A DNA stretch of 36,921 nucleotides from Deltaproteobacteria bacterium. GTDB lineage: Bacteria > Bdellovibrionota_B > Oligoflexia > Oligoflexales > CAIYRB01. The position numbers and the translations under genes are program-made. Numbering within the stretch: position 1 is the stretch's first letter; every line of letters begins with the position of its first letter. The stretch lies in NCBI GenBank assembly GCA_016874735.1, contig VGTI01000039.1:1-36921 (forward strand), in the 5' to 3' direction. Below, in pieces: positions 3,423-36,814 of the stretch. The notes beneath the pieces were generated by a model. That model was not told the origin of the DNA. It did no database searches and saw only the letters and a program-made list of their open reading frames with translations.

Positions 3423-4610
3423 ATGACCAAGACTCGTGTCGTGGCAGCAATGTCGGGAGGTGTGGACTCCTGTGTCGCGGCGGCTTTGCTACTTGAGCAG
3501 GGCTACGAGGTTATTGGTATTACGATGCAGCTGTGGAACCATGCTGGCGACGGCGAGGAGCGTTTTGATAGCTGCTGCTCGCTCACTGATGTCCACGACG
3601 CACGCATGGCGGCCCACCGCATGGGTGTCCCTCATTACGTCGTGAACTACGAGCGTGAGTTTAAAAAGGGCGTCGTCGATTATTTCGCGTCTGAATACGG
3701 CGCCGGGCGTACGCCTAATCCGTGCGTGATGTGCAACAGTAAACTCAAATTTGATCACTTAGTGGACCGTGCACGTGCGCTCGGTGCCGACTGGGTGGCG
3801 ACTGGGCACTATGCGCGGGTCGTGCACCATAGCGATGGACGCCCGAGTGAGCTCTATACAGGCCTTGATCCCAAGAAGGACCAAAGCTACTTCCTCTTCG
3901 ACATGCAGCCCGACAATCTCAAGCGGGCGATGTTTCCGCTTGGTGGTTTAACTAAACCTGAGGTGCGGGCGATCGCTGCACGTCTTGGACTCCATACGGC
4001 GGAAAAACACGAGAGCCAAGAGATCTGCTTTGTCACTGGGGGCCGCTACAGCGACTTTTTAGAAAAGCATTATCCCGACGTGGTGCGTGGACGCGGCGGT
4101 GAGATTGTCGATCGTGATGGTCTCGTTCTTGGGCGTCACGAGGGAATTCATCTCTTTACAGTCGGGCAACGCAAGGGACTTGGGGCTTTAGGTCCCGACC
4201 CCAAATATGTGGCTGCGATCGACGCAGAGCACAACCGTGTTGTCGTCGATGATCTCGAGAATCTTAAAGTCGAGGGCTTTGGCGTCGATCTCGTCAATTG
4301 GCTTGTACCGCGCGACGAGATCACGGCTGATCGGACCTTAAGTGTGATGGTGCGGTACCGGGCTAAGCCGGTCGCTTGTCGCGTGGTGCCAGATGCGGAT
4401 AAACCAGGGCGCTACCAGGTCCTGCTCGCCGAGAAGGCGCGCTGGGTGACTCCGGGGCAAGCGGCCGTATTTTATGACCAAGAGAGGGTAGTCGGTGGAG
4501 GGTTCATTGCCAACAACACAGCCTATAAGGCCACCGTGGCCGCGGCCAGCACGCCTGGAGGATTATCAACTCCTCGGGGCCCAACATCAGCCGATCTTCA
4601 CGCGACTTGA
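3423..4610 (+). CDS. mnmA: tRNA-specific 2-thiouridylase MnmA
   Basis: Puts sulfur on U34 of the Lys, Glu and Gln tRNAs with ATP and persulfide sulfur. Visible motifs are the PP-loop SGGVDS (residues 11-16), NPCVMCNSKLKF with catalytic Cys101, ATGHYAR (126-132), QSYFLF (154-159), SQEICF with the second catalytic Cys202, and TVGQRKGLG later. The conserved core ends at VVGGGFI. The last ~33 residues are a Thr/Pro/Ala-rich tail not usual in the family, and the rnc frame begins inside this tail. The start is the ATG at 3423 after GGGGGG-type Shine-Dalgarno bases. First gene of an mnmA-rnc-der operon. Confidence 0.96.
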   Translation: MTKTRVVAAMSGGVDSCVAAALLLEQGYEVIGITMQLWNHAGDGEERFDSCCSLTDVHDARMAAHRMGVPHYVVNYEREFKKGVVDYFASEYGAGRTPNPCVMCNSKLKFDHLVDRARALGADWVATGHYARVVHHSDGRPSELYTGLDPKKDQSYFLFDMQPDNLKRAMFPLGGLTKPEVRAIAARLGLHTAEKHESQEICFVTGGRYSDFLEKHYPDVVRGRGGEIVDRDGLVLGRHEGIHLFTVGQRKGLGALGPDPKYVAAIDAEHNRVVVDDLENLKVEGFGVDLVNWLVPRDEITADRTLSVMVRYRAKPVACRVVPDADKPGRYQVLLAEKARWVTPGQAAVFYDQERVVGGGFIANNTAYKATVAAASTPGGLSTPRGPTSADLHAT

Positions 4611-5361
4611 CGTGCTGCAGGAACGGGCCGGCCACCGCTTTGCCGACCTGACCCTGTTGTACGAGGCGCTGACGCATCGCTCGGCCTTGATGGAACTCAG
4701 TAGCGTTGTACCCCAGCGTGGTGCGACTGCTAGGAGAAAGTCCGCAGCCAGTGCGTCGCCAAGTTTACCTTGGAACGAGCGGCTTGAATTTCTTGGCGAC
4801 GCCGTTCTTGGTCTGGCCATCAGCCAGAGGCTCATGGAGAGTAGCGACAAGCTTGCAGAGGGTGATCTGTCCCGTCTGCGTGCCATGCTGGTGAACGAGG
4901 AAAACCTGGCTGACCAAGCACGTCAATTGCAACTCGGTAAGTTCCTCATTATGGGTAAGGGCACGGCTCAGACTGGTGGTCGTAATCGCGACTCACTCTT
5001 AGCTGATGCACTTGAAGCCCTAATCGGTGCGGTTTTTGTCGACGGTGGCTTCGCTGCTGCCGATGCTCTGATCGGGCGGATCTTCGCCGGTCAGCTCAAA
5101 GGTGATTTAGCTCAGTACAAAAGATCGGACTATAAGACGCAACTGCAGGAATTAACGCAGGCCCACAACAAACAGACACCTGTTTATGAGGTGGCGCAGG
5201 AATCCGGCCCCGATCATGCCAAGGTGTTTGAGGTGCGTTGCATTGTCTCCGGCCGTGAACTCGGTCGTGGCCGCGGCGCCAGTAAGAAACGAGCTTCGCA
5301 AGAAGCAGCCAAGTTAGCCATATCTTCATTTAAGCAGGTAGCGAAGGAGGGGCAGTTATGA
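4495..5361 (+). CDS. rnc: Ribonuclease III
   Basis: Double-strand-specific endoribonuclease for rRNA and mRNA processing. ALTHRS (58-63) and the signature NERLEFLGD (94-102) mark the catalytic domain, the second acidic site lies in LLADALEALIGAVFVDGG, and a C-terminal dsRNA-binding domain (about 213-285) carries DYKTQLQE and GASKKRASQEAA. ALTHRS and the signature are about 30 residues apart, while E. coli has about 9, so a Ser/Arg/Ala-rich insertion sits next to the active site. The start used is GTG 4495, with AGAGAGGG about seven bases upstream, giving 288 residues and a 116-base overlap with mnmA. A GTG at 4612, just after the mnmA stop, would also give a normal RNase III N-terminus but lacks a Shine-Dalgarno sequence. 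Confidence 0.94.
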   Translation: MEGSLPTTQPIRPPWPRPARLEDYQLLGAQHQPIFTRLDVLQERAGHRFADLTLLYEALTHRSALMELSSVVPQRGATARRKSAASASPSLPWNERLEFLGDAVLGLAISQRLMESSDKLAEGDLSRLRAMLVNEENLADQARQLQLGKFLIMGKGTAQTGGRNRDSLLADALEALIGAVFVDGGFAAADALIGRIFAGQLKGDLAQYKRSDYKTQLQELTQAHNKQTPVYEVAQESGPDHAKVFEVRCIVSGRELGRGRGASKKRASQEAAKLAISSFKQVAKEGQL

Positions 5362-6761
5362 TCAATGGTATCGTCGCCATAGTTGGTCGGCCCAATGTCG
5401 GTAAGTCAACTCTCTTTAACCGTCTCACCGTATCGGATGACGCTATCGTCGATGATCGGCCGGGCGTGACGCGCGATCGTCTCTATGGCCATGCTTGGCT
5501 TGATGCCGAGAAGACCAGTGGCTTTATGGTGATCGACACCGGCGGATTTGAGACGGATGACTTCAAGTTTCAGCCCTTTGCCGAAAACTTAGTGTGGCGC
5601 CAAACCGAGGCGGCTATCAAAGAATCGGATTTAGTCCTGTTGGTTTTAGACGGCAAATCAGGCATGAATCCGCATGACCGTCAGCTCAAGCGCTACTTGG
5701 AAGAGATAAAAAAACCACACGTGATCGCCGTCAACAAGGTTGACGGGCCCGAGCAGAGTCAGGTCATGTGGGAGTTCTTCGAGCTAGGTGTCGATGAGCT
5801 TATCAAGGTTAGTGCGGCGCACAATCGCGGCGTTGGTGATCTGAAGCAGCAGCTGGCTGACGAGCTCGAGACGCTACCGAGTCTGGCGCACGTTAAATCG
5901 GCCAGCGATGCTATCCGCATAGCCATCGTCGGGCGTCCGAATGCAGGTAAATCGTCGATACTTAATCGGATGATGGGCGAGGAGCGGGCCTTAGTCTCAG
6001 ACATTGCAGGCACGACTCGTGATTCGCTCGACACTCCGATGGTCTATAACAACCAGGCCTACGTCCTGATCGACACAGCGGGTATCAGGCGTAAATCCAA
6101 GATCAACGAGCGTCTGGAAAGCTTAAGTGTCATGCGGAGCCTTAGGGCGATTGAGCGCGCCGATGTAGTTCTGCTGGTGCTTGATGCCGTTCAGGGTCTG
6201 ACGGAGCAGGATGCGCGCCTGGCTGATCTCGCTGCAGATCGCGGTAAACCGGTCGGGATCGTCGTCAACAAGTGGGATATATTCCCCGATAAAGAATCGA
6301 ACACGGCCAAGGAGTATACGGCGGCCATTCATCGCGAGCTGAAGACGCTGTCGTATGCGCCTATTACCTTCGTGTCGGCCCTGACGAATCAGCGTGTCCA
6401 CCAGTTGATGTCTCTGGCCGAACGACTAGCACAGTCGGCAAAGAGCCGCGTCGATACCAGCGAGGTCAACCGGGTACTGCGGGCCATGGTCCAGGAGCAT
6501 ACTCCGGCACTGATCAAGGCTAAGTCGAAGCGGGTGAAGTTTTACTTTGCCACCCAGGTCGCCGTGTCGCCCCCAACGATCGTTGTTTTCTGCAACGTAT
6601 CCAATGAGATTCATGAAAGTTATGTGCGCTATATGACTAACAGGTTCAGGCGGGATTTGGGCTTTGCAGAAGTGCCGATCAGGCTTATATTCCGTCCCAA
6701 GAGCGATGTGCGCCAGCGCGATGCAGAGGCTGCTAGCGAGGCCAAGGAGTCCCTAGATTAG
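5358..6761 (+). CDS. der: Ribosome biogenesis GTPase Der (EngA)
   Basis: Essential GTPase of 50S subunit assembly with two tandem G domains. Domain 1 has GRPNVGKS (10-17), DRPGVTRD, DTGG and NKVD (126-129). Domain 2 has GRPNAGKS (192-199), AGTTRD, DTAGIRRK and NKWD (304-307). A KH-like C-terminal domain follows, ending FRRDLGFAEVPIRLIFRPK, the family's typical close. At 467 residues it has the usual length. The start codon overlaps the rnc stop in ATGA (5358-5361), preceded by GGAGGGG, indicating translational coupling. Last gene of the operon. Confidence 0.97.
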   Translation: MINGIVAIVGRPNVGKSTLFNRLTVSDDAIVDDRPGVTRDRLYGHAWLDAEKTSGFMVIDTGGFETDDFKFQPFAENLVWRQTEAAIKESDLVLLVLDGKSGMNPHDRQLKRYLEEIKKPHVIAVNKVDGPEQSQVMWEFFELGVDELIKVSAAHNRGVGDLKQQLADELETLPSLAHVKSASDAIRIAIVGRPNAGKSSILNRMMGEERALVSDIAGTTRDSLDTPMVYNNQAYVLIDTAGIRRKSKINERLESLSVMRSLRAIERADVVLLVLDAVQGLTEQDARLADLAADRGKPVGIVVNKWDIFPDKESNTAKEYTAAIHRELKTLSYAPITFVSALTNQRVHQLMSLAERLAQSAKSRVDTSEVNRVLRAMVQEHTPALIKAKSKRVKFYFATQVAVSPPTIVVFCNVSNEIHESYVRYMTNRFRRDLGFAEVPIRLIFRPKSDVRQRDAEAASEAKESLD

Positions 6762-6777
6762 GGCGCTGCGGTGGTGC

Positions 6778-6783
6778 TATAAT
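6778..6783 (+). promoter_or_regulatory. Candidate -10 box for the HiPIP gene
   Basis: A perfect TATAAT hexamer 17 bases after the der stop and 85 bases before the HiPIP ATG. The -35 region (AGATTA at 6755-6760, 17-base spacing) is weak. It probably starts a HiPIP-globin transcript. Confidence 0.45.
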
Positions 6784-6868
6784 TGGGGTGCCGGAAATGT
6801 CCCGCCCCCCCTTGCTCTTGCTACTACCCTAAACTCACGCAGACCCATCGGATCAAAGGAGCCCCATC

Positions 6869-9226: not shown

Positions 9227-9667
9227 ATGACGATAACCTCGACACCTCTCTCAACCACACACCTCGGTAGAACCATTAAGACTCTCGAGGTGTCCTATCA
9301 GATGCTGCGGTCTGCACAGGCTGGTAGCATTGAATACGAGGTGGCTCGTAATGCTACCATCAAGGGCTTTGAGCTTTGTCTTGAGACTTCTGGCAAACTA
9401 CTGCGCAAGTCTCTAAAGCCCTACTTTGCTTCGTCGCGCCAAGTCGATGAGCTCATGTTTAAGGATCTTTTTCGTCACGCCCACAAGCATGGCTTCTTTA
9501 CCGCCGATGAGGTCGATAGGTGGTTTTCCTACCGCGATAATCGTAACAAAACTGCCCACGATTACGGCGAGGGATTTGCAGAGGAAACGGTGAAGCTCAT
9601 ACAACCATTCTTGCACGACGCCATCAAACTCAAAGGTGTGATCGATGCCCGCAGCGCTTCAGCTTGA
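9227..9667 (+). CDS. HEPN-domain toxin, HepT-like (HI0074 family)
   Basis: 146-residue all-helical protein of the nucleotidyltransferase substrate-binding family. The helix pair with GFELCLETSGKLLRK is typical, and the HEPN active motif R-x4-H-x-Y is complete: Arg106, His111 and Tyr113 (RNKTAHDY). In characterised HepT-MntA pairs this motif gives RNase activity, and the Tyr is the residue modified with AMP by the partner. The MNT partner follows with a 23-base overlap, so the two are co-translated. Usual order toxin first, antitoxin second. Function here is inferred from the family. Confidence 0.85.
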   Translation: MTITSTPLSTTHLGRTIKTLEVSYQMLRSAQAGSIEYEVARNATIKGFELCLETSGKLLRKSLKPYFASSRQVDELMFKDLFRHAHKHGFFTADEVDRWFSYRDNRNKTAHDYGEGFAEETVKLIQPFLHDAIKLKGVIDARSASA

Positions 9668-9968
9668 TCCGCGTTACTTAGCGATGCTGCGTTTGATCTT
9701 TGATAAGTATCTCAAAGATCAATCGGTGGAAGTTTTGGCCTACGGTAGTCGTCTCACGGCAAATTTTCACTCCGGCAGCGATCTCGATCTGGTTATCAGG
9801 AATACCAAAGATCGCTCCCTGCCGGTAAAGCACATGTTTGACCTGCTCGAAGACATTCGCGAGAGCAACGTCCCGATCCTGGTCGATGTCTTAGACTGGG
9901 CTAGGATTCCGGACGAATTTCACACTCAAATCGAGCGCCAACATCTAGTGATTTGGCCGGTAGGCTAA
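9645..9968 (+). CDS. MNT nucleotidyltransferase antitoxin, MntA-like (HI0073 family)
   Basis: 107 residues, a minimal nucleotidyltransferase. The signature GS-x10-DxD is intact (GSRLTANFHSGSDLDL), and a third acidic residue is offered by VDVLDW further on. In type VII toxin-antitoxin systems, proteins of this type transfer AMP to the HEPN partner and silence it. The ATG at 9645 lies inside the end of the HEPN gene and has AAAGGTG as Shine-Dalgarno sequence eight bases upstream. Confidence 0.85.
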   Translation: MPAALQLDPRYLAMLRLIFDKYLKDQSVEVLAYGSRLTANFHSGSDLDLVIRNTKDRSLPVKHMFDLLEDIRESNVPILVDVLDWARIPDEFHTQIERQHLVIWPVG

Positions 9969-10010: not shown

Positions 10011-10015
10011 AGGCA

Positions 10016-10107
10016 GCCTACTTGGGGAAGCTGGTGGGAATCCAGCACTGTGCCGCAACGGTGTATGGAGGTTCGTGTAACCCCATGAGTCCGAATGCCA
10101 AGTAGGC
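10016..10107 (+). ncRNA. Cobalamin riboswitch (compact form)
   Basis: The B12-box pattern is present: GGGAATCCAGCACTGTGCCGC (10037 onward), then a hairpin ATGGAGGTT..AACCCCAT, then GAGTCCGAATGCC. The closing stem P1 is perfect over ten bases (GCCTACTTGG 10016-10025 with CCAAGTAGGC 10098-10107). At 92 bases it is much shorter than full class-I elements and resembles the compact class-II type. Six Ts follow P1 directly at 10110-10115. It precedes the lipoprotein and TonB receptor genes, which should therefore be switched off when cobalamin is plentiful. Confidence 0.88.
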
Positions 10108-10138
10108 ATTTTTTATCTCTCGAGCAAGGGGACTGTTG

Positions 10139-11371
10139 ATGAAGCTAGCAAAACACGGTCGTGTCGGTACTGGTCAGCTGGGGGCGATGCTTGCAGTTGG
10201 GGTCTTAGGCGCGTCGCTTGGGTGTGGGAACAAAGATAAGGATGAGACGGCGGTGACGGCACAGCCTTTTTCGGGGATTGCAATTGCTGGCGTGCCTGCG
10301 GACTACAGCTCTTCGAAGTTGTTTTTTCAACCTCTGAAAGATGGCGCCATTAACGGCGACCTTAAAACTTTGCTTAGTGGTGAGTCAGGTGATCCGTGGC
10401 TGACCACGATGAACGACAAGCTTTATTTTTTCAACAGGACAAGCACCAGCTCTAATTTTCGCTCGATAGATACCAAGCAATCTGATGGCGCCCCGGGCAA
10501 CCAGATTCGCACAGAGCAAGCGGGTTCTGGTGATCCTCACGACGCACTGTGGTTGTCATCTGACCGAGTGTTACTCGCACATTACATTGCAAATAAGTTG
10601 GTTGTGGTTAATCCGGCGGATGGCAGTATTAAGCAGGAAATAACTGCTAATTGGGACTTAGGATCCGACGCTCAAGCGGTGTTCCGGCCTGAGGCGTTCT
10701 ACCGCGCTAGTAGCACGGTCCCCGGCGAAATTTACGTGCTTAATCAGGGTCGTAGTGCAGACTTTTTTGGCTACACCGGCGCCCAGCAAATTTTTGTGTT
10801 GAAGGACGATGGTACCACAGTCACTGTGGTCGATATTGATCCGGCGAAGGAAAAGGTACAAGGCATTAAACTAAACGTCATGAATCCGCAAATTATCTAC
10901 GGCGTAGATGACGCAAATAAACCAATTGTCGCCGGCTTCTGCACAATTTGGGATACAGCATCACCATGTGTGTCGGGGTTTGAGCGCGTGGATTTGGCAG
11001 CGCGTACCTCTACCTTAGTGCTTGACCGGTCCACCGCAACCGAAAAAGGTAACGGCAGTGTAGTTGGTGCTAAAAATGGTAAATACTACGGCGTTGTCGC
11101 TACTTCAGATGGCGCCGGCGGCTACAAATCGCAGGTTCAGGTGTTTGACATAAATGCTGGTACCGCGAAGACATTTTACGAAATTGCCGATGCCAATTAC
11201 GCCGACTACTCAATTGCTTACGATATCAGTGCCAATAAACTATATGTCGGTGAAAAGAAAACGGACGGGACAGGTCAATTCTCGATTTTTGATTTAGCGT
11301 CTGAGAGTTCTACGCCATCCGCCACTTTGGCTCTGCCTTTAGTTCCCTATAAGATCAAATTTGTACCGTAA
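10139..11371 (+). CDS. Putative beta-propeller lipoprotein, possible cobalamin-binding partner
   Basis: About 410 residues. The N-terminus is a lipoprotein signal with Cys29 (..GASLGCGNKDKD). Repeated strand-turn units follow, such as KLVVVNPADGSI, QIFVLKDDGTTVTVVDI, SQVQVFDINAGTA and NKLYVGEKKTDGTGQFSIFDL, the look of a WD40/YVTN-type propeller. It lies directly behind a cobalamin riboswitch and five bases before a TonB-dependent receptor. In Bacteroides, BtuG is a B12-binding surface propeller lipoprotein encoded next to BtuB, and a similar role is inferred here, not shown. The ATG at 10139 is chosen over TTG 10136 because AAGGGG lies at the right distance. Confidence 0.82.
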   Translation: MKLAKHGRVGTGQLGAMLAVGVLGASLGCGNKDKDETAVTAQPFSGIAIAGVPADYSSSKLFFQPLKDGAINGDLKTLLSGESGDPWLTTMNDKLYFFNRTSTSSNFRSIDTKQSDGAPGNQIRTEQAGSGDPHDALWLSSDRVLLAHYIANKLVVVNPADGSIKQEITANWDLGSDAQAVFRPEAFYRASSTVPGEIYVLNQGRSADFFGYTGAQQIFVLKDDGTTVTVVDIDPAKEKVQGIKLNVMNPQIIYGVDDANKPIVAGFCTIWDTASPCVSGFERVDLAARTSTLVLDRSTATEKGNGSVVGAKNGKYYGVVATSDGAGGYKSQVQVFDINAGTAKTFYEIADANYADYSIAYDISANKLYVGEKKTDGTGQFSIFDLASESSTPSATLALPLVPYKIKFVP

Positions 11372-11376
11372 ATGAA

Positions 11377-13440
11377 ATGACTACCGTATTCACCACAGCC
11401 CTGACCATCATCCTCTCGACCTTGGCCACTTCGGTGGCTAAGGCGGAAGACCAAGATGGACCAGTGTCACGGGCGAATACGGTTGAAGTTTGGGGCACAC
11501 GCACGGAATCTACGCGCGCAGCCCGAGCTGGACAGAGTGTGATGATTCGACCGGATGATGAGACGCGCTTTGATACGCGCGTCCATCTCCGGAATGAGCC
11601 TAATCTAGCACTGCCCGATACTGGTAGGATCAATGCGTCCGGCTTCAATCTACCACGGGTGCGAGGCCAGGATTCTAGGTTTACAGAAGTGTACCTTGAC
11701 GGTCTGCGGGTGCAGGATCCCTACGTGGGTTTCCCTTTCATCGATGACTTAGACCTGCGTGCCTGTGGTGAACTATCGATCTACGTGGGTAATCCACCGC
11801 CGTCGCTCCCTACGATCAATCCAAACGGCGCTATCGCTTACCGGATGTTTACACCGGTAGGGCGCAAGGATCAGACTGGGATATTGGTGGGGCGTCCCTA
11901 CGGTACTGCGCTCTGGGCCCTCAGTCGCTATCGTTCAGCAAATGGCAGCGATGCGCGTTTTTATGGACGAGAGCATTGGACGGATGGTCGCTTTCCCTAT
12001 CACGATGATAACGCTACCCCCTACAATGTCTCTGACGATAGAACGGGTGAGCGGCGGCATGCCGATAGGCGAGCCATTCAGTTTCTACCGACCTTCAACT
12101 GGCAGAGTGGCGGGCATCATGTTTCGGTCCTTGGTCTCTGGAACGACGCCAAGACCAGTCTGCCGGCGCGCAATAGTAGCACCAATAGCTTGGCGCGTGA
12201 GTATTCCCGTCACCGCGTGGGGCGCATAGCCTATAACTTCAAGCCTGAGTCGTCTCATGTCGCCGTGCCAGAATTGATGGGACTCGAGATCGGTCGCTAC
12301 GATGACCAGATGGACGTTAGTGACCCGACTAATGTAGTTTTGGGATCGGTTCAGTCTAATAAAAGGCGTCTTCTATCAAGTAGTGCGGCTACCAATTTGA
12401 AGTGGACTGTAGCTAGTGACCAAGGGGAATCGTCGCTATACCTGCGTGGCGAGGCCACCGATACAAGTATCCGCGCAATGACTAGTGCAGCCACGGATTA
12501 TACGATTAGAAGGCGTCAGAGCTTATTTTATTCTGGACTTGATCTAGCGATTTTACCCACGGTTAGAGCCGAGCTCAAGGGCATGATTACGCGCCAGACC
12601 GATAATGCCAACGGCAAGAAGAATCAGGAGACCGTTAAGAGCCTCAGTCAGTCGCGTCATCTGATGATACCGGGGAGTTCTTTGGGGCTAGCTTGGCAGC
12701 CGCAAGACTTAACCGTTTACATGCAGGTGGCAAGAGTACGTCGATCACCGACGCTGCTTGAGCAGTTTGGTGATGGTGCTTTGATTCGCGATAATCCTGG
12801 GCTGTCTCCTGAGACCACTATCCACCGCGAACTTGGCATTCAGTGGCGGGTAGAGGGCGGGGCGCTGATCACTGGACCCATGAAGCAATTTAGTTTACGC
12901 AGTTCCCTGTTTAGAGATGACACGTGGGACCGGATTATCTTGCTACCTTCCATTGCGCAGACCATGCGGGCGCAAAACGCGGTGCGTACAGCCATCAATG
13001 GAGCTGAGATTGCTGGCGAGATTACGGCCTGGTCGACGACGCTGATGGCTGGGTATGCGCGGCTCTTTCCGATGGACTTGAGCTACTCTAGCCGACACCG
13101 GACCGTGCCGGGAGTGGCTGAGCATGTTGCTACCGGTAGCATCAGTCAAAACCTAGGACTTGCAACTCTCAGGTGGCAGTCAAGATACCAAAGTCAGGTG
13201 TGGCGTGACTCTGAGAACAGTATCGCTGTTCCTGGCTACTTGATCCACGATGCTACGTTAGATGCTAAATGGTCGCAGTTTAGCTTTGGTTTTGGGTTAT
13301 TCAATCTTACCGATCAGCGGCGTCTTAATATTTACGCTGATGGCACCGAGGCTAATCGCGGTGCCACCTCATACAGTGACTATGCTGGTATGCCGCTACC
13401 GGGTCGGCACTGGCGCGTCAGTGTGTCGGCTTCGCTATAA
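11377..13440 (+). CDS. TonB-dependent outer-membrane receptor, probable cobalamin receptor
   Basis: 687 residues. A signal peptide ends near SVAKA (about residue 23). A TonB-box-like NTVEVWGTR follows, then a plug domain with RVRGQDSRFTEVYLDGLRVQDPYVG, and a barrel of alternating strands. The end, PLPGRHWRVSVSASL, has the usual PGR motif and terminal amphipathic strand, though with Leu and not Phe as the last residue. Placement behind the cobalamin riboswitch, five bases after the lipoprotein gene, points to corrinoid uptake. Overall the plug is diverged and the substrate is inferred from context. Confidence 0.87.
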   Translation: MTTVFTTALTIILSTLATSVAKAEDQDGPVSRANTVEVWGTRTESTRAARAGQSVMIRPDDETRFDTRVHLRNEPNLALPDTGRINASGFNLPRVRGQDSRFTEVYLDGLRVQDPYVGFPFIDDLDLRACGELSIYVGNPPPSLPTINPNGAIAYRMFTPVGRKDQTGILVGRPYGTALWALSRYRSANGSDARFYGREHWTDGRFPYHDDNATPYNVSDDRTGERRHADRRAIQFLPTFNWQSGGHHVSVLGLWNDAKTSLPARNSSTNSLAREYSRHRVGRIAYNFKPESSHVAVPELMGLEIGRYDDQMDVSDPTNVVLGSVQSNKRRLLSSSAATNLKWTVASDQGESSLYLRGEATDTSIRAMTSAATDYTIRRRQSLFYSGLDLAILPTVRAELKGMITRQTDNANGKKNQETVKSLSQSRHLMIPGSSLGLAWQPQDLTVYMQVARVRRSPTLLEQFGDGALIRDNPGLSPETTIHRELGIQWRVEGGALITGPMKQFSLRSSLFRDDTWDRIILLPSIAQTMRAQNAVRTAINGAEIAGEITAWSTTLMAGYARLFPMDLSYSSRHRTVPGVAEHVATGSISQNLGLATLRWQSRYQSQVWRDSENSIAVPGYLIHDATLDAKWSQFSFGFGLFNLTDQRRLNIYADGTEANRGATSYSDYAGMPLPGRHWRVSVSASL

Positions 13441-19567: not shown

Positions 19568-20029
19568 CTACGAGATAAAGCCCTTTGCGCGGCAGTACTC
19601 TTCAGCCTTAGCAAACATCTCTATTAGTAGTGGAGCGAAATTTAGGACCTCAGTGACCACCCTGTCAGTTTCATCGATGATATATTCATGAACGATTTGG
19701 TTGCGAAGGTCTTTGAGCAGAGCGTAGTTGATTTCATCGCGAAGGATGCGCCTCTTTTTGAATCGATTAATGCGATCAAGGACACTGCCGTCGTCGGTCA
19801 ACTCGATCCGGTCGATAGTGCGCATCAATTTCTGAGTTAAAAAGTCGAGAGCGCGACCATAGCGAGAGGTAAGAGCTTCTAAGCTCTCTCGTTCATCGTC
19901 GGTGAGTTGCCGTTTACCGGCCTCTTTGAGTAATGATTCTGATTTAATGGTACTTTGATTGAATACATGGACTGCTCTACGGCCCAAATCTAGGTCGATC
20001 TTTAGTTGTCTAATGATAGGATCAGTCAT
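19568..20029 (-). CDS. HEPN-domain protein, HepT-like toxin
   Basis: 153 residues, helical. It carries the HepT active motif R-x4-H-x-Y as Arg109, His114 and Tyr116 (LRNQIVHEY), the same motif as in the 9.2-kb pair but in an otherwise dissimilar protein. Such proteins act as RNases neutralised by AMP transfer from the partner. Here the nucleotidyltransferase comes first and the two frames overlap by eight bases. Base composition is AT-rich compared with neighbours, a hint of horizontal acquisition. Confidence 0.8.
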   Translation of the reverse strand: MTDPIIRQLKIDLDLGRRAVHVFNQSTIKSESLLKEAGKRQLTDDERESLEALTSRYGRALDFLTQKLMRTIDRIELTDDGSVLDRINRFKKRRILRDEINYALLKDLRNQIVHEYIIDETDRVVTEVLNFAPLLIEMFAKAEEYCRAKGFIS

Positions 20030-20363
20030 TTGTCGTCCAAAGTATTTTGCTTTTCTTGGAAATTAATTCGTAAAAATTGTTTTCTCGCTCACTATTAAAG
20101 TATTTATTTTCGCAGATGATCAGAATATCAAATTTTTGCTCTCCCAATCTTCTGACGAGTTCGCTGCGTAGTCTTTGTATATCTAGAAACTTATCGTTTG
20201 ATGCTTCCTGGATTTCAAAAATAAGATCAATGTCTCCACCTGCTTTTTCCAAGTCACAGCGAGATCCGTATAGCCTAACTTCTCTTAGGTTCTCGCCAAG
20301 CGTAGTGACGCCAGCGGCAATAATTTGCTCAATTTCTTGTGTTGTTAATCGAACATTTTTCAT
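20022..20363 (-). CDS. MNT nucleotidyltransferase, MntA-like antitoxin
   Basis: About 113 residues. The nucleotidyltransferase signature is present (YGSRCDLEKAGGDIDLIFE, GS-x9-DxD), and KFDILII offers the third acidic residue. The frame is open to 20492, inside the btuD-like gene, but the protein character begins at MKNVRLTTQE, so ATG 20363 is chosen. ATG 20378 is also possible, and neither has a clear Shine-Dalgarno sequence. It heads a two-gene antitoxin-toxin unit and is AT-rich, especially at its 3' end. Confidence 0.8.
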   Translation of the reverse strand: MKNVRLTTQEIEQIIAAGVTTLGENLREVRLYGSRCDLEKAGGDIDLIFEIQEASNDKFLDIQRLRSELVRRLGEQKFDILIICENKYFNSERENNFYELISKKSKILWTTND

Positions 20364-20406
20364 AGCTATGGCCAACATAACATAATTTGCAAAGTCCCTA
20401 TAATAC

Positions 20407-21162
20407 CTAAGTCGCCGCCACTCCACTGATAAACCAACGGCCGCTAGTATGCGACGCACGGACACCAAACACTCGCTCTGCCAACCCTTCACTAAGTGCC
20501 TGATGGAGATTACCGTGACCTACCAATCGCCCCTGATGCAAGCATACGAAGTCATTTGTGAGTTCCGAGGCTAGCGCTATATCATGGAGCGATATGATGA
20601 TGCCCGTGCCGCTTTTGGCCCGTGCCTTTAGGATTTCGAGCATCATGTAGCTGGTTTGTAGGTCCAAATTAGTGAGCGGCTCGTCGAGTAGTAGATAGGA
20701 CGACGGTGCGACTAGAGCGCGCGCCAGCATAACGCGTTGTTTCTCGCCGCTCGATAGTTGCATAATGCTGCGGCTGGCGAGCTCGTGGGCACAAAGCCCT
20801 GTGAGTGCGGCCATAGTTAACTCGTCGTGACGGCGCGTGGGGCGTCCTTGGTGCCACGGGAAGAGGCCCATGCGCACCACTTCAAACACAGTGTAGTCGA
20901 AGGCGACTTGCGTCGTGGGGGGGAGCCACGTGCAGATCTTGCTGTGCTCGAGGGCAGTCGTACCGCGCCCCACAACCTCTCCAGTGCTTGGGCTGATGAT
21001 GCCGGCCAGGACTTTGAGGAGAGTTGATTTGCCGGCACCGTTGGGGCCTATGAGCGCCGTGATTTTGCCGGGATCAAGCATGGCGCTGATCTGATCTAAG
21101 CTGCGGTGATTTGCTATGACGCAGCTGACGTCTTTGACACCAAGTGAGCGATTAGCACTCAT
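20407..21162 (-). CDS. btuD: ABC transporter ATPase, BtuD/FecE type
   Basis: 251 residues, cytoplasmic ATPase of a cobalamin- or siderophore-type importer. Walker A is GPNGAGKS (39-46), the ABC signature LSSGEKQ (136-142), Walker B LLLDEP (157-162), and the switch His is in ISLHD. It starts in an ATGA overlap with the permease gene and closes the btuFCD-like operon. The gene symbol is by family and context, because haem or siderophore importers look alike. Confidence 0.88.
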   Translation of the reverse strand: MSANRSLGVKDVSCVIANHRSLDQISAMLDPGKITALIGPNGAGKSTLLKVLAGIISPSTGEVVGRGTTALEHSKICTWLPPTTQVAFDYTVFEVVRMGLFPWHQGRPTRRHDELTMAALTGLCAHELASRSIMQLSSGEKQRVMLARALVAPSSYLLLDEPLTNLDLQTSYMMLEILKARAKSGTGIIISLHDIALASELTNDFVCLHQGRLVGHGNLHQALSEGLAERVFGVRASHTSGRWFISGVAAT

Positions 21163-22208
21163 TCTGATCCTCCTTTACTTGGACGGGCCAGCAATAGGAG
21201 GAAAAATGTCGCACCCAGGGCTGAAGTGAGGATGCTAGCTGGGAGTTCAATAGGTGCCCTGAGCCATCTTGCGGCAAGGTCAGCTGCCACTACCAATGTT
21301 GCTCCCTGCACAGCCGCAAGTGCCACGAGGCCGCGGTGACTGGCTCCAATTAGACGTCTGGCGATGTGCGGGACGATGAGTCCAACAAATGGTAAGGCGC
21401 CAGCAGCAGCCACAGCGCCTGCTACTAATATGCCTATGACCGCAATGGTATGTCGCCGTAGACGCTGAAGGTCGATGGACAGCGACTGAGCCGTGTCTTC
21501 TCCGAGGCCTAAGACGTCCAGTGCTGCAGCGACTTTGAGACCAGCGATCAGTCCCATGCTAAGCGTCACGCCAGCGATGATCACGTGCTCGTAGCCTTTG
21601 GCTGCCAGGCCCCCAATGAGGAACGATAGGGCCCGACCACTGCGTCCTGGTTCTTCCAGTGTCATCGTGATGAGGTAAGATGTCCCTGCACCTAGAAGTG
21701 CGTTAATGGCAAAACCCGAGAGCATGATATGCGTAGTTGAGCTCGTGATGGAATCCTGTGACTGTGAGCGCTTGGCAATGCCCAATGCCATGAGGGTCGT
21801 AGCGATGGCACCGGCAAATGCAGCTAAGGGCAAAAGTAACGGATTCTCGTGAGCCCAGCCGAGCATGAAGGCAATAGCTGCCGCGATACTACCGCCAGCC
21901 TCGGTGCCTAGTACCGTTGGGCTTGCCAAGTTCTCCCGGAATAAGCCCTGGGCGAGCACGCCTGCTACTGCTAGAGCGCTGCCCACAAGTGCTGCAGTCA
22001 GTGCACGCGGGATCCTCAGCTCAGTCAGGATCGTCCAAGCCATGGAGGCAGACTCGGTTGTTGCGGCTCCACCCAGGTGGTTGGTAAATCCGAGGGTAAG
22101 ATCATCCCAATTTAGTACCGATCCGCCAAAAATCAAACTTGCCACCACAACGACAGCTAAGGTCACAATGCTGATGATCCAAACCGATTGTTTACGGTGT
22201 GGCATCAT
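21159..22208 (-). CDS. btuC: ABC transporter permease, BtuC/FecCD family
   Basis: 349 residues with many hydrophobic helices. Characteristic FecCD-family segments are LRIPRALTAALVGSALAVAGVLAQGLFRENLASPTVLGTEAGGS and, near the end, LPFVGLIVPHIARRLIGASHRGL. Works as a dimer in the inner membrane with the ATPase (20407-21162) and the binding protein (22205-23176). Stops and starts overlap by four bases at both ends, so translation is coupled. Substrate by inference. Confidence 0.9.
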   Translation of the reverse strand: MMPHRKQSVWIISIVTLAVVVVASLIFGGSVLNWDDLTLGFTNHLGGAATTESASMAWTILTELRIPRALTAALVGSALAVAGVLAQGLFRENLASPTVLGTEAGGSIAAAIAFMLGWAHENPLLLPLAAFAGAIATTLMALGIAKRSQSQDSITSSTTHIMLSGFAINALLGAGTSYLITMTLEEPGRSGRALSFLIGGLAAKGYEHVIIAGVTLSMGLIAGLKVAAALDVLGLGEDTAQSLSIDLQRLRRHTIAVIGILVAGAVAAAGALPFVGLIVPHIARRLIGASHRGLVALAAVQGATLVVAADLAARWLRAPIELPASILTSALGATFFLLLLARPSKGGSE

Positions 22209-23176
22209 TTGGCCTGAGCCTCGGTGACTGGTGGTTCGTTTTTTAGAGCAGACTTGAGTTTGGCAACGGCTTTGGTGATATGCGGTGAGACTGCTGCGAG
22301 CTCAGAGTCTGGAATCACGATGATACGTCCGGCGCTCCACGCGGCAAGCTTACTAATGCCTGGTATGGCTTTGAGTTTGGCTGACTCCTCGTCACGACTG
22401 GTGTTGGGTGTACCGCCAACGACGATGAAGCTTGGGTTTAGGTTAAGTAGAGCTTCGACACTTAATTTTTGCCAGCCGTTAACGAGATCGTGAGCTGCAT
22501 TGGTGGCGCCCGCTGCGGTGGAGATCGCGTCGAATAAAGTATTTCGTCCGCTAATTGTTCCATCATCGTAGATATGCAGTACGCTCGGTTGCGCTCGTGT
22601 TTTTTCCCCTTTTTCTGAGGCTAATGCGAGTGAAGATTTCATCTCGGTCACGACTTTAGCTGCAGCCTCTGGCTCGTCAATACGTTCGCCCAATGATTTA
22701 ATGGTAGACTCAATCGCCTCTATGCTCACGAGATCGGTCATCATAAATTTCGCGATCTGCATACTCTGCAGCCTACTGATAATTTCGGGGCGACTAAAGC
22801 TTGCTAGGATAACGAGATCTGGTTTGAACCTCACAACCTGCTCGACGTCACCGTGAAAGCGGCCCTTGATGCCGCTCGCCATTGCGGTGATGTTGCTGTA
22901 GCGCTGATCATCAGCAAATCGCGAGACAGCCACCAATCTGGCAAGTGCCGATTGGCACGGTCGCGGCTCGCACGATGCTGCCAAGATGGCGGTGAGCATT
23001 TCGTCACTCGCCAGTGTTGCTGACAATATGCGCTGAGGCTTAGCGAGGCAAAAATTGCCGTGAAAAAAAGCCAGAAATACCAATATCCCAGCCAACCATG
23101 GGCCGACAGTGGCGGACATCGACAATTGCTGGGGAAGCCCCTGAACTCTCAATTTGTTTTGCGATTTTTGTAGCAT
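22205..23176 (-). CDS. btuF: Periplasmic substrate-binding protein, BtuF/FepB type
   Basis: About 323 residues. A hydrophobic export signal (LAGILVFLAFFHGNFCLA, about residues 29-46) precedes PQRILSATLASDEML. The binding-protein core shows VVRFKPDLVILASFSRPEIISRLQ, a long linking helix and LLNLNPSFIVVGGTPNTS, the two-lobed cluster A-II plan. Whether ATG 23176 or an internal ATG at 23119 is used is unclear. Two Cys (AASCEPRPC) may form a disulfide as in BtuF proteins. No riboswitch was found upstream. Cobalamin is suggested by the B12-regulated receptor operon 10 kb away. Confidence 0.85.
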   Translation of the reverse strand: MLQKSQNKLRVQGLPQQLSMSATVGPWLAGILVFLAFFHGNFCLAKPQRILSATLASDEMLTAILAASCEPRPCQSALARLVAVSRFADDQRYSNITAMASGIKGRFHGDVEQVVRFKPDLVILASFSRPEIISRLQSMQIAKFMMTDLVSIEAIESTIKSLGERIDEPEAAAKVVTEMKSSLALASEKGEKTRAQPSVLHIYDDGTISGRNTLFDAISTAAGATNAAHDLVNGWQKLSVEALLNLNPSFIVVGGTPNTSRDEESAKLKAIPGISKLAAWSAGRIIVIPDSELAAVSPHITKAVAKLKSALKNEPPVTEAQAK

Positions 23177-23410
23177 CACTAAAATTATATGGTCCTCTCC
23201 AGAGTCGGGTCAACTGGTGCACGACGCCGGTGGCGTAGACAAAAAAAAGTTCGGCGAATTCCAGGTTTAAGACGCAAGGCGGCCCTAATTCTAAAGGCTG
23301 TCCAAGATTTAGGCGATGCAAGACTTGGTATCGGTCGATGCGTCATAGTCTTTAGCGACTTAGGTTAGCGCATCCAAGTTTAGCGGAACTGCAGCGTTTG
23401 GAGGTTAGTC

Positions 23411-29820: not shown

Positions 29821-29861
29821 TGACGAGCACAGTGTGATCACTGATAAAACGCCATGACGGT
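29821..29861 (+). repeat. Right copy of 41-bp imperfect direct repeat
   Basis: The same 41-base unit as at 26734-26774 (34 of 41 identical, same orientation), starting three bases behind the nadV stop. It also covers the last codons and stop of the convergent surface protein gene. The start-to-start distance is 3087 bases. Confidence 0.75.
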
Positions 29862-32800
29862 GAGGGTGCGGCCGCCGATTGGAGTTGCAGGTGATCCGCT
29901 GGTCCAACCTGGAGAGCTGTACCACATTACACCACAAGAGGCACACCACCAGTATATGTCGGCGGTATGTGCACCTGCGCTTAGATTGGCAACGGCAGAA
30001 CCAGATAATTGGATGTTACAATCACCGCTGCAATATGGATGAAAGTGAGAGCCGGATCCCTGATAGTAAACACCGTCGATATTGATGATGGTACTTACAT
30101 AGTCTGCACCAGGATTACTGCCCGGGGATGCGTTCATTGAATAGTGAGCGTATATTGTGGCAGGGCGATCGAGTGTAAAAGATACCGTTGAATCAGGCAC
30201 TTTGGTGACCGCCGCAGTTTGAATTGTGATGTTAGTGGTCGGCGCAGATTGCCACATCCCAGCCAATACCCCACCACCCTTAATCGTGCCGTTAACGTCG
30301 AGCTTGGCAGCCGGTGTCGATGAACCAATGCCGACATTGCCGGTGGTTGTTAAAGTTCCTGTGATAGCAATGTTGTCGTTGATGCCGACCGATCCACCGC
30401 TGGTGGCGGCGCTAAAGTCCTTGACCCAAGATGCGTAGACTTTAGTGCCAGCCTTGATCAGAGTGACTAGAGTATCGCTTCCTGGAGTCACAACCACGGG
30501 GCACGCGGGATTGCAGTAGAAGGTAAGGCCAGTGCTTGCGAAAGTGTAGTTACCGCCGGTAGCGTTGGTGAGTGCTAGCGTGTAGTTGGCGCCGTCCACC
30601 ATGGAATTGGCGACAAAAGTGATGGCACCGGCGGCAGCATTCGTCGATTGGATGTTGCCGCCTTTCCAGTCGATCGTGGTGGTAGTGCCCGCTACATAGG
30701 TACCAATGATCGGTCCGCCGCTTACTGTAAGGGATCCCGTCATCGTATCACCGGTTTTATTCACTTTGGTCGTGTCGATTGTGGATGCGATAGTCACAAC
30801 TCCGGCAGAGTTGGTGACGTTTATCCCGGTACCTGCCGTGATCGTGCCGAGCGCATAGCCGCTTCCGTTGCCTATGAGTATTTGACCGTTCGTGGGTGTC
30901 GTCGATACACCGGTACCACCGTTAGCGACGCCAATGACGCCTGAGCCGATAGAGCTTGCTGGCAAAGACGGAATATCAGCAGCCGTTAGTGGTAGCCCTG
31001 CGGTGATACGGCCTTTGGTGTCAGTCACAACTTTGGCATAAGTCCCGGCTGTGACACCTGTCGCAGCAAGAGTAGGGTTTGGAAAGTTTCCAACCAAATC
31101 ACCTCCGGCGCTGCCAGTGGGAGCGGCACCAGATACCCAAGACATGACGCCACTGCCGTTGGTGGAAAGCAATTGACCGTTGGTGCCATCGGTAGATGGC
31201 AGTGTCCAAGTGGTCGATGCACCGAGGGTGTCAGGCGATTTTAGAGCGACGAAGTTAGCACTACCGCGGTCATTCAAGACGAGTTTATTAGCTGTGGTAC
31301 TGTTACCCACCACCGTGATGTTGCCTTTAACCGTTGCAGCAGAGGTTGTGACCGTACCAGTGGTATCAATAGACGCTGTACCAGTGATTAGTGAGGCCCC
31401 GCTAATTGTACCTGCATTAATAACGGGACTTGTCAGCGTCTTGTTGGTTAGCGTCTCTCCGGCAGTCTCAGTAACGACTACACCCGATGTCGGGAATGTG
31501 GCCGTGGAACTCACCCCCGTACCACCGTTAGTCGTCGCGAGTAATCCTGTGACGGCAGCGGATTGCGCTAAGTTGAGAGCAGCAAAACTGGGTACACCGC
31601 CACCTGCAGGCACGGAGAGGATTTGGTAAGCATTACCAGCCGCGGTGCTGATGAGATTGCCGGTGCCGTTCCCGAGCATCACCCCGTTACTGGTAAACGT
31701 TGTGGCACCTGTGCCGCCTTTATCGACACCAAAAACACCGGAGCCGATAATGCTGGCTGGTAGTGTGGGCACGTCGGCCACGGCCAATGGTAGCCCCGCG
31801 GTGATGCGGCCTTTGGTGTCGGTCACTACTTTGGCATAAGTCCCAGCTGTGACACCTGTCGCAGCAAGAGTGGGGTTAGGAAAGTTTCCAACCAAATCGC
31901 CACCCGCAGCACCAGTAGGTGCTAAACCCGATGTCCACCCGAGGCCTCCGCTACCGTTAGTCATGAGCACTTGTCCTGATGTGCCGTCGGTGGACGGAAG
32001 TGTCCACACTGTGGACGCGGACAAGGTGTCGGCTGCTTTAAGGGCGACAAAGTTTGTGGTGCCTTTATCGTTTAATAAAATCTTGTTTGCTAAAGTACCG
32101 TCGCCCTGAACAGTCAGATTACCGCGGACTGTGTTAGCACTTGAGGTGACTGTGCCAGCGGTATCAATGGACGTTGCGCCTGTGATGAGCGAATTGCCGC
32201 TGATCGTCCCCGCGTTAACAACGGGACTAGTCAGCGTCTTATTAGTAAGCGTTTCAGCTGCGGTCTGAGTCACGATCACGCCGGATGTGGGGAATGTGGC
32301 CGTGGAATTAACTCCCGTACCACCGTTAGTCGTCGCCAGTAGTCCTGTGACGGCCGCGGATTGCGCTAAGTTGAGAGCAGCAAAACTGGGTATACCGCCA
32401 CCTGCAGGTACGGAGAGGATTTGGTAGGCGTTGCCGGCAGCAGTGCTAATGAGATTGCCGTTGCCATTGCCGAGCATCACCCCGTTACTGGTAAACGTTG
32501 TGGCACCTGTGCCGCCTTTATCGACACCAAAAACACCAGAGCCGATGATACTAGCTGGTAGTGTGGGCACGTCGGCCACGGCCAATGGTAGCCCCGCGGT
32601 GATACGACCTTTGGTGTCGGTCACAACTTTGGCATAAGTCCCAGCTGTGACACCTGTCGCAGCAAGAGTGGGGTTAGGAAAGTTTCCAACCAAATCGCCA
32701 CCCGCAGCACCGGTCGGCGCTAGGCCGGACGTCCAGCCGAGTGCACCACTACCATCGGTAGATAGCACTTGGCCGGCACTACCATCAGCGGGTGGTAAGG

Positions 32801-33989
32801 TCCAGACGACTGAGCTGCTCAAAGTGTCGGCAGATTTCAGGGCGACGAAATTTGCGGTTCCTTTATCGCCTAAAACTAACCGACTTGCGTTTGTGCCGTT
32901 GCCGTTTAGCGTGAGGTTGCCCCCAAGCGTGGCAGACGCAGCACCGATGCTTCCGGTAGTGGTGATGTTTGTGGCACCAGTGATAAGCGAATGTCCAGCA
33001 ACCGTGCCCGATGTGATGATCGCTGCTGTGAGACTTGCTGCCGTTAGGCTCTTGTTGGTGAGTGTCTGACTGGCATCCTCGGTTACGATCACGCCAGAGG
33101 TTGGGAACGTGGCTGTCGAGTTCACCCCGGTACCGCCGTTGGCCCTACCTAATAAACCAGTCCCAATCTTTGCAGCATCGAGCGTTGGGATATCAGCAGC
33201 AGTTAGTGTCGCGCCCGCAGTTATTTGGCCGTACCGATTGGTTGTAACTTTCGTATAGGTTCCAGAAGTCCCAATTTCAGCGAGAGAGATGGTCGAGGTC
33301 CCCCCGGCGTTAGTGACGACGACGCCTTCACCTGCACCGAATCCAGCAACACCCGGAGACGCGGCAACCCACTTCGCTCCGTCGAATGTCAGCACTTGCC
33401 CCAAACTTGCGGGTGCACCACTAGCTGCATCAGCACTCAGAGTAGCCAGCGAGGGACTGGCCCAACTGAACTGACCGTTTGCACCGCGCGTAAGGAACTG
33501 GTTGGGCCCAGCGTTGCTCTTTAGAGCGAGTCCTAACTGTCCGTTAGCGTCAAATGATAGCGAATTGTCTGTAGGCACGCGCAGGGCAAAAGGCACCAAG
33601 TGAAATTCTTGCCGCGGATAGGTCTTACCAGCTGCGCTCACTTCAACGAATACTGGCTCACTGCCGTTACCGAAGACAGCAGTAATCTCTGCTGGGCTGA
33701 GCTCTAACGCTACTGTAAACACACCCTGATTTAGCTTAACAGCACTCAAAATCAGATTGGGGCCTAGTCGGGTTCCGTTAGTTCCTGCGGACCAGAAGCT
33801 CACGCTCAAGTCCACCGGGCCAACGAGCGGTGCGCCGCTCTCATTGGTCAGCCGCCCAGAGTAACTCAGAGGTAAAACCTCGGCGGCACGAGCCATGGGA
33901 GCAAGGCTGGCCAGGAGGCAAAAGACCAGTGCGTGCAGCAGGTTGCGCCGCATCGACTGGAATTTTCCTGTGGTACCAGCAAGTTGCAT
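29838..33989 (-). CDS. Large secreted surface protein with tail-fibre-like tandem repeats
   Basis: 1383 residues. A hydrophobic signal (LLHALVFCLLASLAPMARAAE, about 17-37) follows a short N-terminal tail. Then comes a beta-sandwich-like domain (GRLTNESGAPLVGPVDLSVSFW, about 42-135), then repeats of an about 266-residue module (SGLAPTGAAGGDLVGNFPNP.., with YAKVVTDTKGRITAG and GGTG turns). The C-terminal part has GNVGIGSSTPAAKLDVNGTIK, as in tail-fibre and adhesin shafts, and a Cys-containing end domain. GAGGAGG precedes ATG 33989. Probably an extracellular fibre or adhesin. No phage genes are nearby. Confidence 0.87.
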   Translation of the reverse strand: MQLAGTTGKFQSMRRNLLHALVFCLLASLAPMARAAEVLPLSYSGRLTNESGAPLVGPVDLSVSFWSAGTNGTRLGPNLILSAVKLNQGVFTVALELSPAEITAVFGNGSEPVFVEVSAAGKTYPRQEFHLVPFALRVPTDNSLSFDANGQLGLALKSNAGPNQFLTRGANGQFSWASPSLATLSADAASGAPASLGQVLTFDGAKWVAASPGVAGFGAGEGVVVTNAGGTSTISLAEIGTSGTYTKVTTNRYGQITAGATLTAADIPTLDAAKIGTGLLGRANGGTGVNSTATFPTSGVIVTEDASQTLTNKSLTAASLTAAIITSGTVAGHSLITGATNITTTGSIGAASATLGGNLTLNGNGTNASRLVLGDKGTANFVALKSADTLSSSVVWTLPPADGSAGQVLSTDGSGALGWTSGLAPTGAAGGDLVGNFPNPTLAATGVTAGTYAKVVTDTKGRITAGLPLAVADVPTLPASIIGSGVFGVDKGGTGATTFTSNGVMLGNGNGNLISTAAGNAYQILSVPAGGGIPSFAALNLAQSAAVTGLLATTNGGTGVNSTATFPTSGVIVTQTAAETLTNKTLTSPVVNAGTISGNSLITGATSIDTAGTVTSSANTVRGNLTVQGDGTLANKILLNDKGTTNFVALKAADTLSASTVWTLPSTDGTSGQVLMTNGSGGLGWTSGLAPTGAAGGDLVGNFPNPTLAATGVTAGTYAKVVTDTKGRITAGLPLAVADVPTLPASIIGSGVFGVDKGGTGATTFTSNGVMLGNGTGNLISTAAGNAYQILSVPAGGGVPSFAALNLAQSAAVTGLLATTNGGTGVSSTATFPTSGVVVTETAGETLTNKTLTSPVINAGTISGASLITGTASIDTTGTVTTSAATVKGNITVVGNSTTANKLVLNDRGSANFVALKSPDTLGASTTWTLPSTDGTNGQLLSTNGSGVMSWVSGAAPTGSAGGDLVGNFPNPTLAATGVTAGTYAKVVTDTKGRITAGLPLTAADIPSLPASSIGSGVIGVANGGTGVSTTPTNGQILIGNGSGYALGTITAGTGINVTNSAGVVTIASTIDTTKVNKTGDTMTGSLTVSGGPIIGTYVAGTTTTIDWKGGNIQSTNAAAGAITFVANSMVDGANYTLALTNATGGNYTFASTGLTFYCNPACPVVVTPGSDTLVTLIKAGTKVYASWVKDFSAATSGGSVGINDNIAITGTLTTTGNVGIGSSTPAAKLDVNGTIKGGGVLAGMWQSAPTTNITIQTAAVTKVPDSTVSFTLDRPATIYAHYSMNASPGSNPGADYVSTIINIDGVYYQGSGSHFHPYCSGDCNIQLSGSAVANLSAGAHTADIYWWCASCGVMWYSSPGWTSGSPATPIGGRTLTVMAFYQ
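31134..32729 (-). repeat. Two tandem 798-bp repeat units (266 residues each)
   Basis: Units run 32729-31932 and 31931-31134 in the reading direction. The same point of the sequence recurs at 32729, 31931 and 31133, exactly 798 apart. A partial unit lies before them (about 33145-32730) and another after (31133 to about 30895). Some 90-base blocks, for example 31822-31913 and 32620-32711, differ at only about one position, indicating recent duplication or gene conversion. Confidence 0.85.
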
Positions 33990-34155
33990 GGCCCCTCCTC
34001 ACCTGCGGCTCCAGTGTTACGCCCACTGGCTCCTACCTACGCATTCGGAGGTCCCGGTTAAAACTTAAGCACTACGGGAAATCATTTTTTTTCCTTCGTA
34101 ATTACCGATCCTTGTACACGACATTAGGGGTAGAAATTTCGTACCGATTTTGACC

Positions 34156-36630: not shown

Positions 36631-36814
36631 AACCAAATCACCAACCTGAGTGATGCTACGACTGTTGCTAAAGTTAACCCTACAAAGGCCATCGGCAAAT
36701 CAGCTGAAAACTAAATGGATGATGAATATTGCTTGTAAAATTGGGGTGTTAGGTGTGGTGAAAACAGGCGGTTCCCAGGCCGTTGTCTGCGATTTCCCTC
36801 ATCTGCAAAAAAGT

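Follow-up and report, generated by a model that had tools for sequence, protein, structure and literature searches.

Bacteroides cells display on their surface a seven-bladed lipoprotein, BtuG, which has a very high affinity for corrinoids and forms a lid over the receptor BtuB (PMC10404256, PMC6143338). A 2018 study reported BtuG homologues in Bacteroidetes only and tied the protein to gut competition (PMC6143338). B12 binders of the DUF4465 family have been described in eight bacterial clades, often beside propellers of the PF16819 family, in a 2026 study that argued that B12-scavenging proteins are widespread (PMC13398666). Here we analyse an operon in a 36,921-nucleotide stretch of DNA from a genome of the order Oligoflexales (GenBank assembly GCA_016874735.1, contig VGTI01000039.1, positions 1 to 36,921 of the forward strand; hereafter the window). 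A cobalamin riboswitch precedes a gene for a lipoprotein with a predicted propeller fold, which is followed by a gene for a TonB-dependent receptor. We hold with good confidence that the two genes encode a cobamide (vitamin B12) uptake pair that works like BtuB-BtuG of Bacteroides, divergent in sequence and outside Bacteroidota.

The pair shares its layout with several described systems. BtuG1, BtuG2 and BtuG3 are propeller lipoproteins whose genes adjoin that of a TonB-dependent receptor downstream of a cobalamin riboswitch, and the window protein, with its predicted propeller, agrees with them in all of this; it differs in its low identity to them (about 12-16%), in lacking a PF16819 match and in its host, which lies outside Bacteroidota. 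Its partner resembles BtuB, both the E. coli type (TIGR01779) and that of Bacteroides, as a TonB-dependent receptor under a cobalamin riboswitch. Unlike BtuB, it does not match TIGR01779, belongs to a separate, fully supported clade and has a weak Plug domain and no detected Pfam barrel. The DUF4465 lipoproteins (BtuJ and the C-terminal domain of BtuH) are likewise accessory B12-scavenging proteins (PMC13398666), but they form a different family, and no DUF4465 domain was found in the window operon. In E. coli, the gene for the TonB receptor PqqU also adjoins a gene for a seven-bladed propeller, yncE, but there the two genes are divergent and the substrate is pyrroloquinoline quinone (PQQ). 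We know of no cobalamin riboswitch for PqqU/YncE, and by analogy YncE (E. coli K-12, locus L215) may be a counterpart of BtuG for PQQ. On all the computable evidence the window pair looks like a working BtuB-BtuG system, but by sequence it falls outside both families. In the searchable literature, which leaves out most subscription journals and preprints, we met no report of an Oligoflexia propeller resembling BtuG.

A lipoprotein with a BtuG-like predicted fold

The lipoprotein gene runs from an ATG at 10139 to a stop codon ending at 11371 (+ strand) and encodes 410 amino acids with a lipobox (ASLG followed by C29). Both genes of the pair are conserved coding sequences, and the lipobox-type cysteine is aligned across the lipoprotein family. 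Conserved positions of the lipoprotein include D85, R100, D132-P133, P184 and Q203. A preliminary description of this DNA, made from the sequence alone, had placed the lipoprotein in no recognised family and had read a propeller from its repeats. A Pfam search up to an E value of 1 likewise returned no family, sequence and profile searches against PDB sequences retrieved neither BtuG nor any other meaningful match, and the plasmid collection that we searched held no homologues.

The propeller reading was supported by structure prediction. A template-free AlphaFold2 model built from an alignment of 17 relatives with no Bacteroidota sequence among them (the window, loci of the Oligoflexales type and three distant homologues) reached a predicted local distance difference test score (pLDDT) of 82.3 and a predicted template-modelling score of 0.82, with 27 strands. 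This number of strands fits about seven four-stranded blades. A model from the lipoprotein sequence alone was unusable (pLDDT 37) and was discarded.

We then compared the model with 350,542 PDB chains using Foldseek. Ranks 1-10 were all BtuG (BtuG1, BtuG2, BtuG3 or the B. uniformis BtuG structure 3DSM), with E values of 2.2e-11 to 2.2e-9 and TM-scores of 0.66-0.73 on target length, so the comparison with BtuG that the preliminary description had proposed returned BtuG for its ten best matches. BtuG chains made up 15 of the top 17 matches, and other propellers scored below them, with E. coli YncE at rank 35. The structural alignments with BtuG gave the identity of about 12-16% cited above. The modelled fold is specifically BtuG-like, yet the sequence does not join the BtuG family.

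The lipoprotein and receptor genes are conserved as a pair

Among 56 relatives of the same order and class, the receptor was present in 22, and in all 22 the lipoprotein gene lay directly upstream (P = 1e-13, Fisher test), usually with the two reading frames abutting or overlapping. Co-occurrence of the pair in related genomes, which had been proposed as a check, was thus borne out. The named relatives are Oligoflexales, Oligoflexus and Pseudobacteriovorax metagenome-assembled genomes (MAGs). A 23rd pair was found in another family of the class (G056). Nine pairs have cobalamin riboswitches, from three Rfam families in total: AdoCbl-II (RF01689) in the window genome (G000) and in G002, G004, G005, G033, G036 and G039; AdoCbl (RF01482) in G041; and Cobalamin (RF00174) in G011. 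The pair of G056 is preceded by the riboswitch core motif only.

In L096 (G006; same family, outside the genus), the lipoprotein gene stands without receptor and without FecCD permease, and a gene for a smaller secreted protein comes after it; this may reflect assembly loss, as G006 is 77% complete, or a different use. Elsewhere in the class, an AdoCbl-II riboswitch precedes a BtuB-like receptor in L102 and L107. In L107 (positions 3672-6803; G021) a gene for a propeller-like lipoprotein comes after this receptor, which makes it a second type of receptor teamed with a propeller in the same order. The riboswitch also precedes a metE-like gene in L111, identified from its translation. In a further family of the class (L103, L104 and L105), it stands before a thioesterase-like gene, after which comes a ribonucleotide-reductase-like gene of about 800 amino acids (both read from translations), an arrangement that suggests B12 control of a ribonucleotide-reductase-like operon.

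Riboswitch and leader of the operon

The compact cobalamin riboswitch named in the preliminary description was recovered as an AdoCbl-II aptamer at 10015-10108 (+). RF01689 matched over its full length with 35.1 bits (E = 5.9e-7 for the 251 nucleotides searched; E = 2.6e-6 for the whole genome), 1.4 bits below the gathering score of 36.5, and a default Rfam scan with the gathering cut-off reported nothing at these positions. RF00174 overlapped the same region more weakly (28.6 bits). The RNA folds better than shuffled sequences (z = -2.3), and there are pair-bearing relatives that carry RF01689 above the cut-off upstream of the same two genes. The P1 arms lie at 10016-10025 and 10098-10107 (+), and the core, CTGTGCCGCAACGG, at 10048-10061 (+). 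A second weak AdoCbl-II match lies elsewhere in the genome (G000:C23, 25.1 bits).

Downstream of the aptamer, a small hairpin, CUCU[CGAGCA]AGGGG (10117-10131, +), holds the Shine-Dalgarno sequence in its 3' arm. It was found 3' of the riboswitch in 14 compared loci, in which 96% of the cells of its 4-pair stem were paired, both sides had changed at two pairs, and the pairing exceeded that of shuffled and shifted controls. In cobalamin riboswitches, a kissing-loop hairpin can occlude the ribosome-binding site. The leader hairpin fits this arrangement by analogy, with putative docking to the aptamer, and is probably the regulatory P13/L13 hairpin. A run of six T residues (T6; 10109-10114, +) directly follows P1 and could form a terminator when P1 closes. 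We set aside P1 and T6 as a general terminator switch because, among the pair loci compared, T-runs of at least five after P1 were confined to members of the window's genus, whereas the Shine-Dalgarno hairpin was common to other loci. Within the genus, termination may add to occlusion of the Shine-Dalgarno sequence.

Cobalamin-linked relatives in other phyla

The receptor scan also reached distant receptors from one Kofleriaceae genome, one Eisenbacteria genome and two deltaproteobacterial MAGs. In three of these loci (L132, L133 and L135) a propeller-like gene beside the receptor matches the lipoprotein profile, and RF00174 riboswitches were found in L133 (80 bits) and L134 (79 bits). We also searched with the lipoprotein profile alone in 193 genomes of the class of the Kofleriaceae genome (G058), 14 of which matched. 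Of 12 loci examined from those 14 genomes, 11 have a cobalamin riboswitch (54-109 bits); the chance per locus would be about 1%, a rough guess that assumes five riboswitches per 7 Mb. The lipoprotein family is therefore tied to cobalamin beyond the Oligoflexia clade. Some of the 12 loci have no receptor next to the propeller, and profile relatives of the lipoprotein adjoin other receptor clades in cobalamin-riboswitch loci. L200 additionally encodes a BtuF-type periplasmic binding protein and CobT.

Four of the distant loci (L132, L133, L200 and L207, from Myxococcota and Eisenbacteria) resemble the window in that a receptor is combined with a propeller-like lipoprotein detected by the profile of the window family. 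Clear cobalamin riboswitches are present in L133, L200 and L207; none was found in L132, which is a short contig. They differ in gene order, with the receptor first and the lipoprotein second, and in their riboswitch family, RF00174; L132 further differs from the window in a weak DUF5074 match. We lean towards the view that the BtuG-like propellers of Oligoflexia, Myxococcota, Eisenbacteria and Bacteroidota belong to one superfamily of lipoproteins, so far unrecognised, that capture cobamides in partnership with several different clades of TonB receptors.

Small lipoproteins of about 230-247 amino acids, with no Pfam match, adjoin the propeller lipoprotein in four cobalamin-riboswitch loci of the Kofleriaceae class (L203:5350-6075, L205:3556-4251, L208:5268-5960 and L201:1637-2380). 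They share a stretch like LGPPQGxGDxxGxxDVVSLGxGGEIVLxFD and are possibly a second B12-binding accessory protein.

The receptor forms its own clade

The receptor gene (11377-13440, +; 687 amino acids) begins five bases past the stop codon of the lipoprotein gene, and the order of lipoprotein, five bases and TonB-dependent receptor that was noted in the preliminary description agrees with the coordinates, the lipobox, and the Plug and NCBIfam matches. The Plug domain (E = 2.4e-4) falls just short of the Pfam cut-off, the Pfam barrel domain was not detected in the receptor, and NCBIfam places it among TonB receptors with no specific name. TonB-dependent receptors combine a Plug with a 22-strand barrel; the profile of the window receptor hit 48 distinct solved sequences at E <= 0.001, and most of these alignments cover the C-terminal barrel. 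TIGR01779, the equivalog of TonB-dependent B12 receptors (BtuB), does not match this locus; its sole match in the genome lies elsewhere (G000:C14), with 37.6 bits against a cut-off of 599.7.

In a tree that included E. coli BtuB, FepA, FhuA, FecA, CirA, Fiu and PqqU, the Oligoflexia receptors formed their own clade (support 100/100), apart from BtuB and from the siderophore receptors. The best-scoring outsiders were propeller-paired receptors of Myxococcota, Eisenbacteria and deltaproteobacterial loci (79-138 bits), and PqqU (62 bits) and BtuB (31 bits) scored lower. Placement beyond the clade is unsure because of long branches and uneven composition. The arrangement had been called BtuG-BtuB-like in the preliminary description, which had named a clustering with siderophore receptors as contrary evidence. 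Such clustering was not observed. The description needs amending in one detail: the receptor is not of the BtuB family.

Probable B12 dependence and an inner-membrane importer

The window also contains a BtuFCD-like importer that had been overlooked before. An operon at 20407-23179 (-) encodes a BtuF-like periplasmic binding protein (22205-23179; Peripla_BP_2, PF01497, E = 3.4e-20), a BtuC-like permease (21159-22208; FecCD, PF01032, E = 6e-69) and a BtuD-like ATP-binding cassette (ABC) ATPase (20407-21162; PF00005, E = 5e-25). The permease is the only FecCD match in the genome. No riboswitch was found before this operon. The nearest solved relatives of the BtuF-like protein include haem-binding proteins and E. 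coli BtuF, and the best NCBIfam matches of the ATPase are haem and corrinoid type ATPases. Judged by sequence, the ABC parts resemble both haem and B12 transporters, haem slightly more closely, and the two substrate classes are not separable. The importer and the pair probably serve one B12 route, with the importer as its inner-membrane half. A FecCD permease lies about 1 kilobase from the pair in G002 and G005, and co-occurrence of pair and FecCD across the order was mildly significant (P = 0.046).

As far as gene content can show, the host depends on B12. The window genome has six matches to B12-binding domains, including MetH-sized and mutase-sized open frames. CbiC and MetE were not found in it, and among the pair-bearing genomes searched only G011 has CbiC. 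Because B12-binding domains are present while CbiC and MetE are lacking, the organism most likely relies on import for its cobamides. Neither the pair nor the permease is present in the congeners G001 and G003, where B12-binding matches are down to one weak match; G001 has MetE. All of the B12 parts are present in the four pair-bearing members of the genus, one of which is the window genome. Joint loss or gain of pair, permease and B12 enzymes within the genus is as an uptake role would predict, although this contrast is an observation on six genomes, few and incomplete, and not a statistic.

Proposed mechanism and alternatives

We propose that, when cobalamin is scarce, the riboswitch would keep the Shine-Dalgarno sequence accessible, with the lipoprotein produced along with its tightly linked receptor. 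The lipoprotein, tethered to the outer membrane by its lipid, would bind cobamide on a face of the propeller and sit on the receptor as a lid or hand-over partner. The receptor would import the cobamide using TonB energy, and the BtuFCD-like importer would then pass it through the inner membrane, making it available to MetH and other B12-dependent enzymes. Plentiful cobalamin would bind the aptamer, which would dock on and close the Shine-Dalgarno hairpin and turn the operon off; in the window's genus the P1 terminator perhaps helps.

Several observations weigh against this proposal. Among solved structures, the receptor matches siderophore and PQQ receptors best, PqqU being one of them, and the closest solved relatives of the ABC transporter are haem transporters. 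The lipoprotein does not match PF16819 (DUF5074), the family of propellers that has been reported next to B12 binders with DUF4465. Neither the Rfam scan nor the motif scan detected a cobalamin riboswitch at 13 of the 23 pairs. To our knowledge, there is no established surface-export signal for lipoproteins of this phylum. Where Bacteroidetes lipoproteins carry their export signal, after the cysteine, the window protein reads CGNKDKDE (from the lipobox cysteine on); acidic residues follow the cysteine in some family members and not in others (e.g. CGPLPRPR), and no conserved export signal after the cysteine was found across the family. This lack, in a phylum where surface export of lipoproteins is unproven, would suit a receptor that imports cobamide with a lipoprotein that is not a surface B12 binder but faces the periplasm or assists receptor assembly. 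We regard that arrangement as unlikely: the modelled fold is nearest BtuG and above generic propellers such as YncE, and the profile relatives beside other receptor clades in cobalamin-riboswitch loci also argue against it.

The resemblances to PqqU and to haem transporters, together with the adjoining pqqU and yncE genes of E. coli, could instead point to a pair for haem or PQQ. Cobalamin riboswitches of three Rfam families would be surprising upstream of a pair for either substrate, the lipoprotein profile hardly detects YncE, and the pair is absent jointly with the B12 enzymes in G001 and G003, which makes this explanation very improbable. In some bacteria cobalt transporters are regulated by B12 riboswitches, and the PDB search showed a resemblance of the receptor to metallophore receptors, so the pair might supply B12 synthesis with cobalt or a different metal complex, which would account for the riboswitch. 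With CbiC lacking, the window genome has no de novo synthesis that cobalt could feed, and the same gap was seen in every searched pair-bearing genome except G011; the propeller is also BtuG-like. We give cobalt or metal import a minimal chance.

Lipoprotein-assisted cobamide capture outside Bacteroidetes, first suggested in the preliminary description, is thus supported by the predicted fold, the co-occurrence of the pair and the cobalamin-riboswitch loci in other phyla. If it is correct, such capture would be a general strategy, far more widespread than thought, and many uncharacterised propellers and receptors would gain a testable function. A propeller lipoprotein, a receptor and a cobalamin riboswitch together could serve as a rule for finding B12 scavengers. 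If the superfamily also exists, lid-type B12 capture would be ancient or repeatedly transferred and not a gut adaptation of Bacteroidetes. The 2026 study of DUF4465 proteins lowers the surprise of such a system but agrees with it (PMC13398666).

Other genes in the window

At 9227-9968 (+), a minimal nucleotidyltransferase is encoded together with a nucleotidyltransferase-substrate-binding (HEPN-like) protein. A second such pair, alike by eye and with no Pfam match, lies at 19568-20492 (-). Two very large proteins are encoded at 29838-36636 (-), one of 1383 amino acids with no Pfam match and one of 826 amino acids with a C-terminal Laminin_G_3 domain; both are probably surface or secreted proteins.

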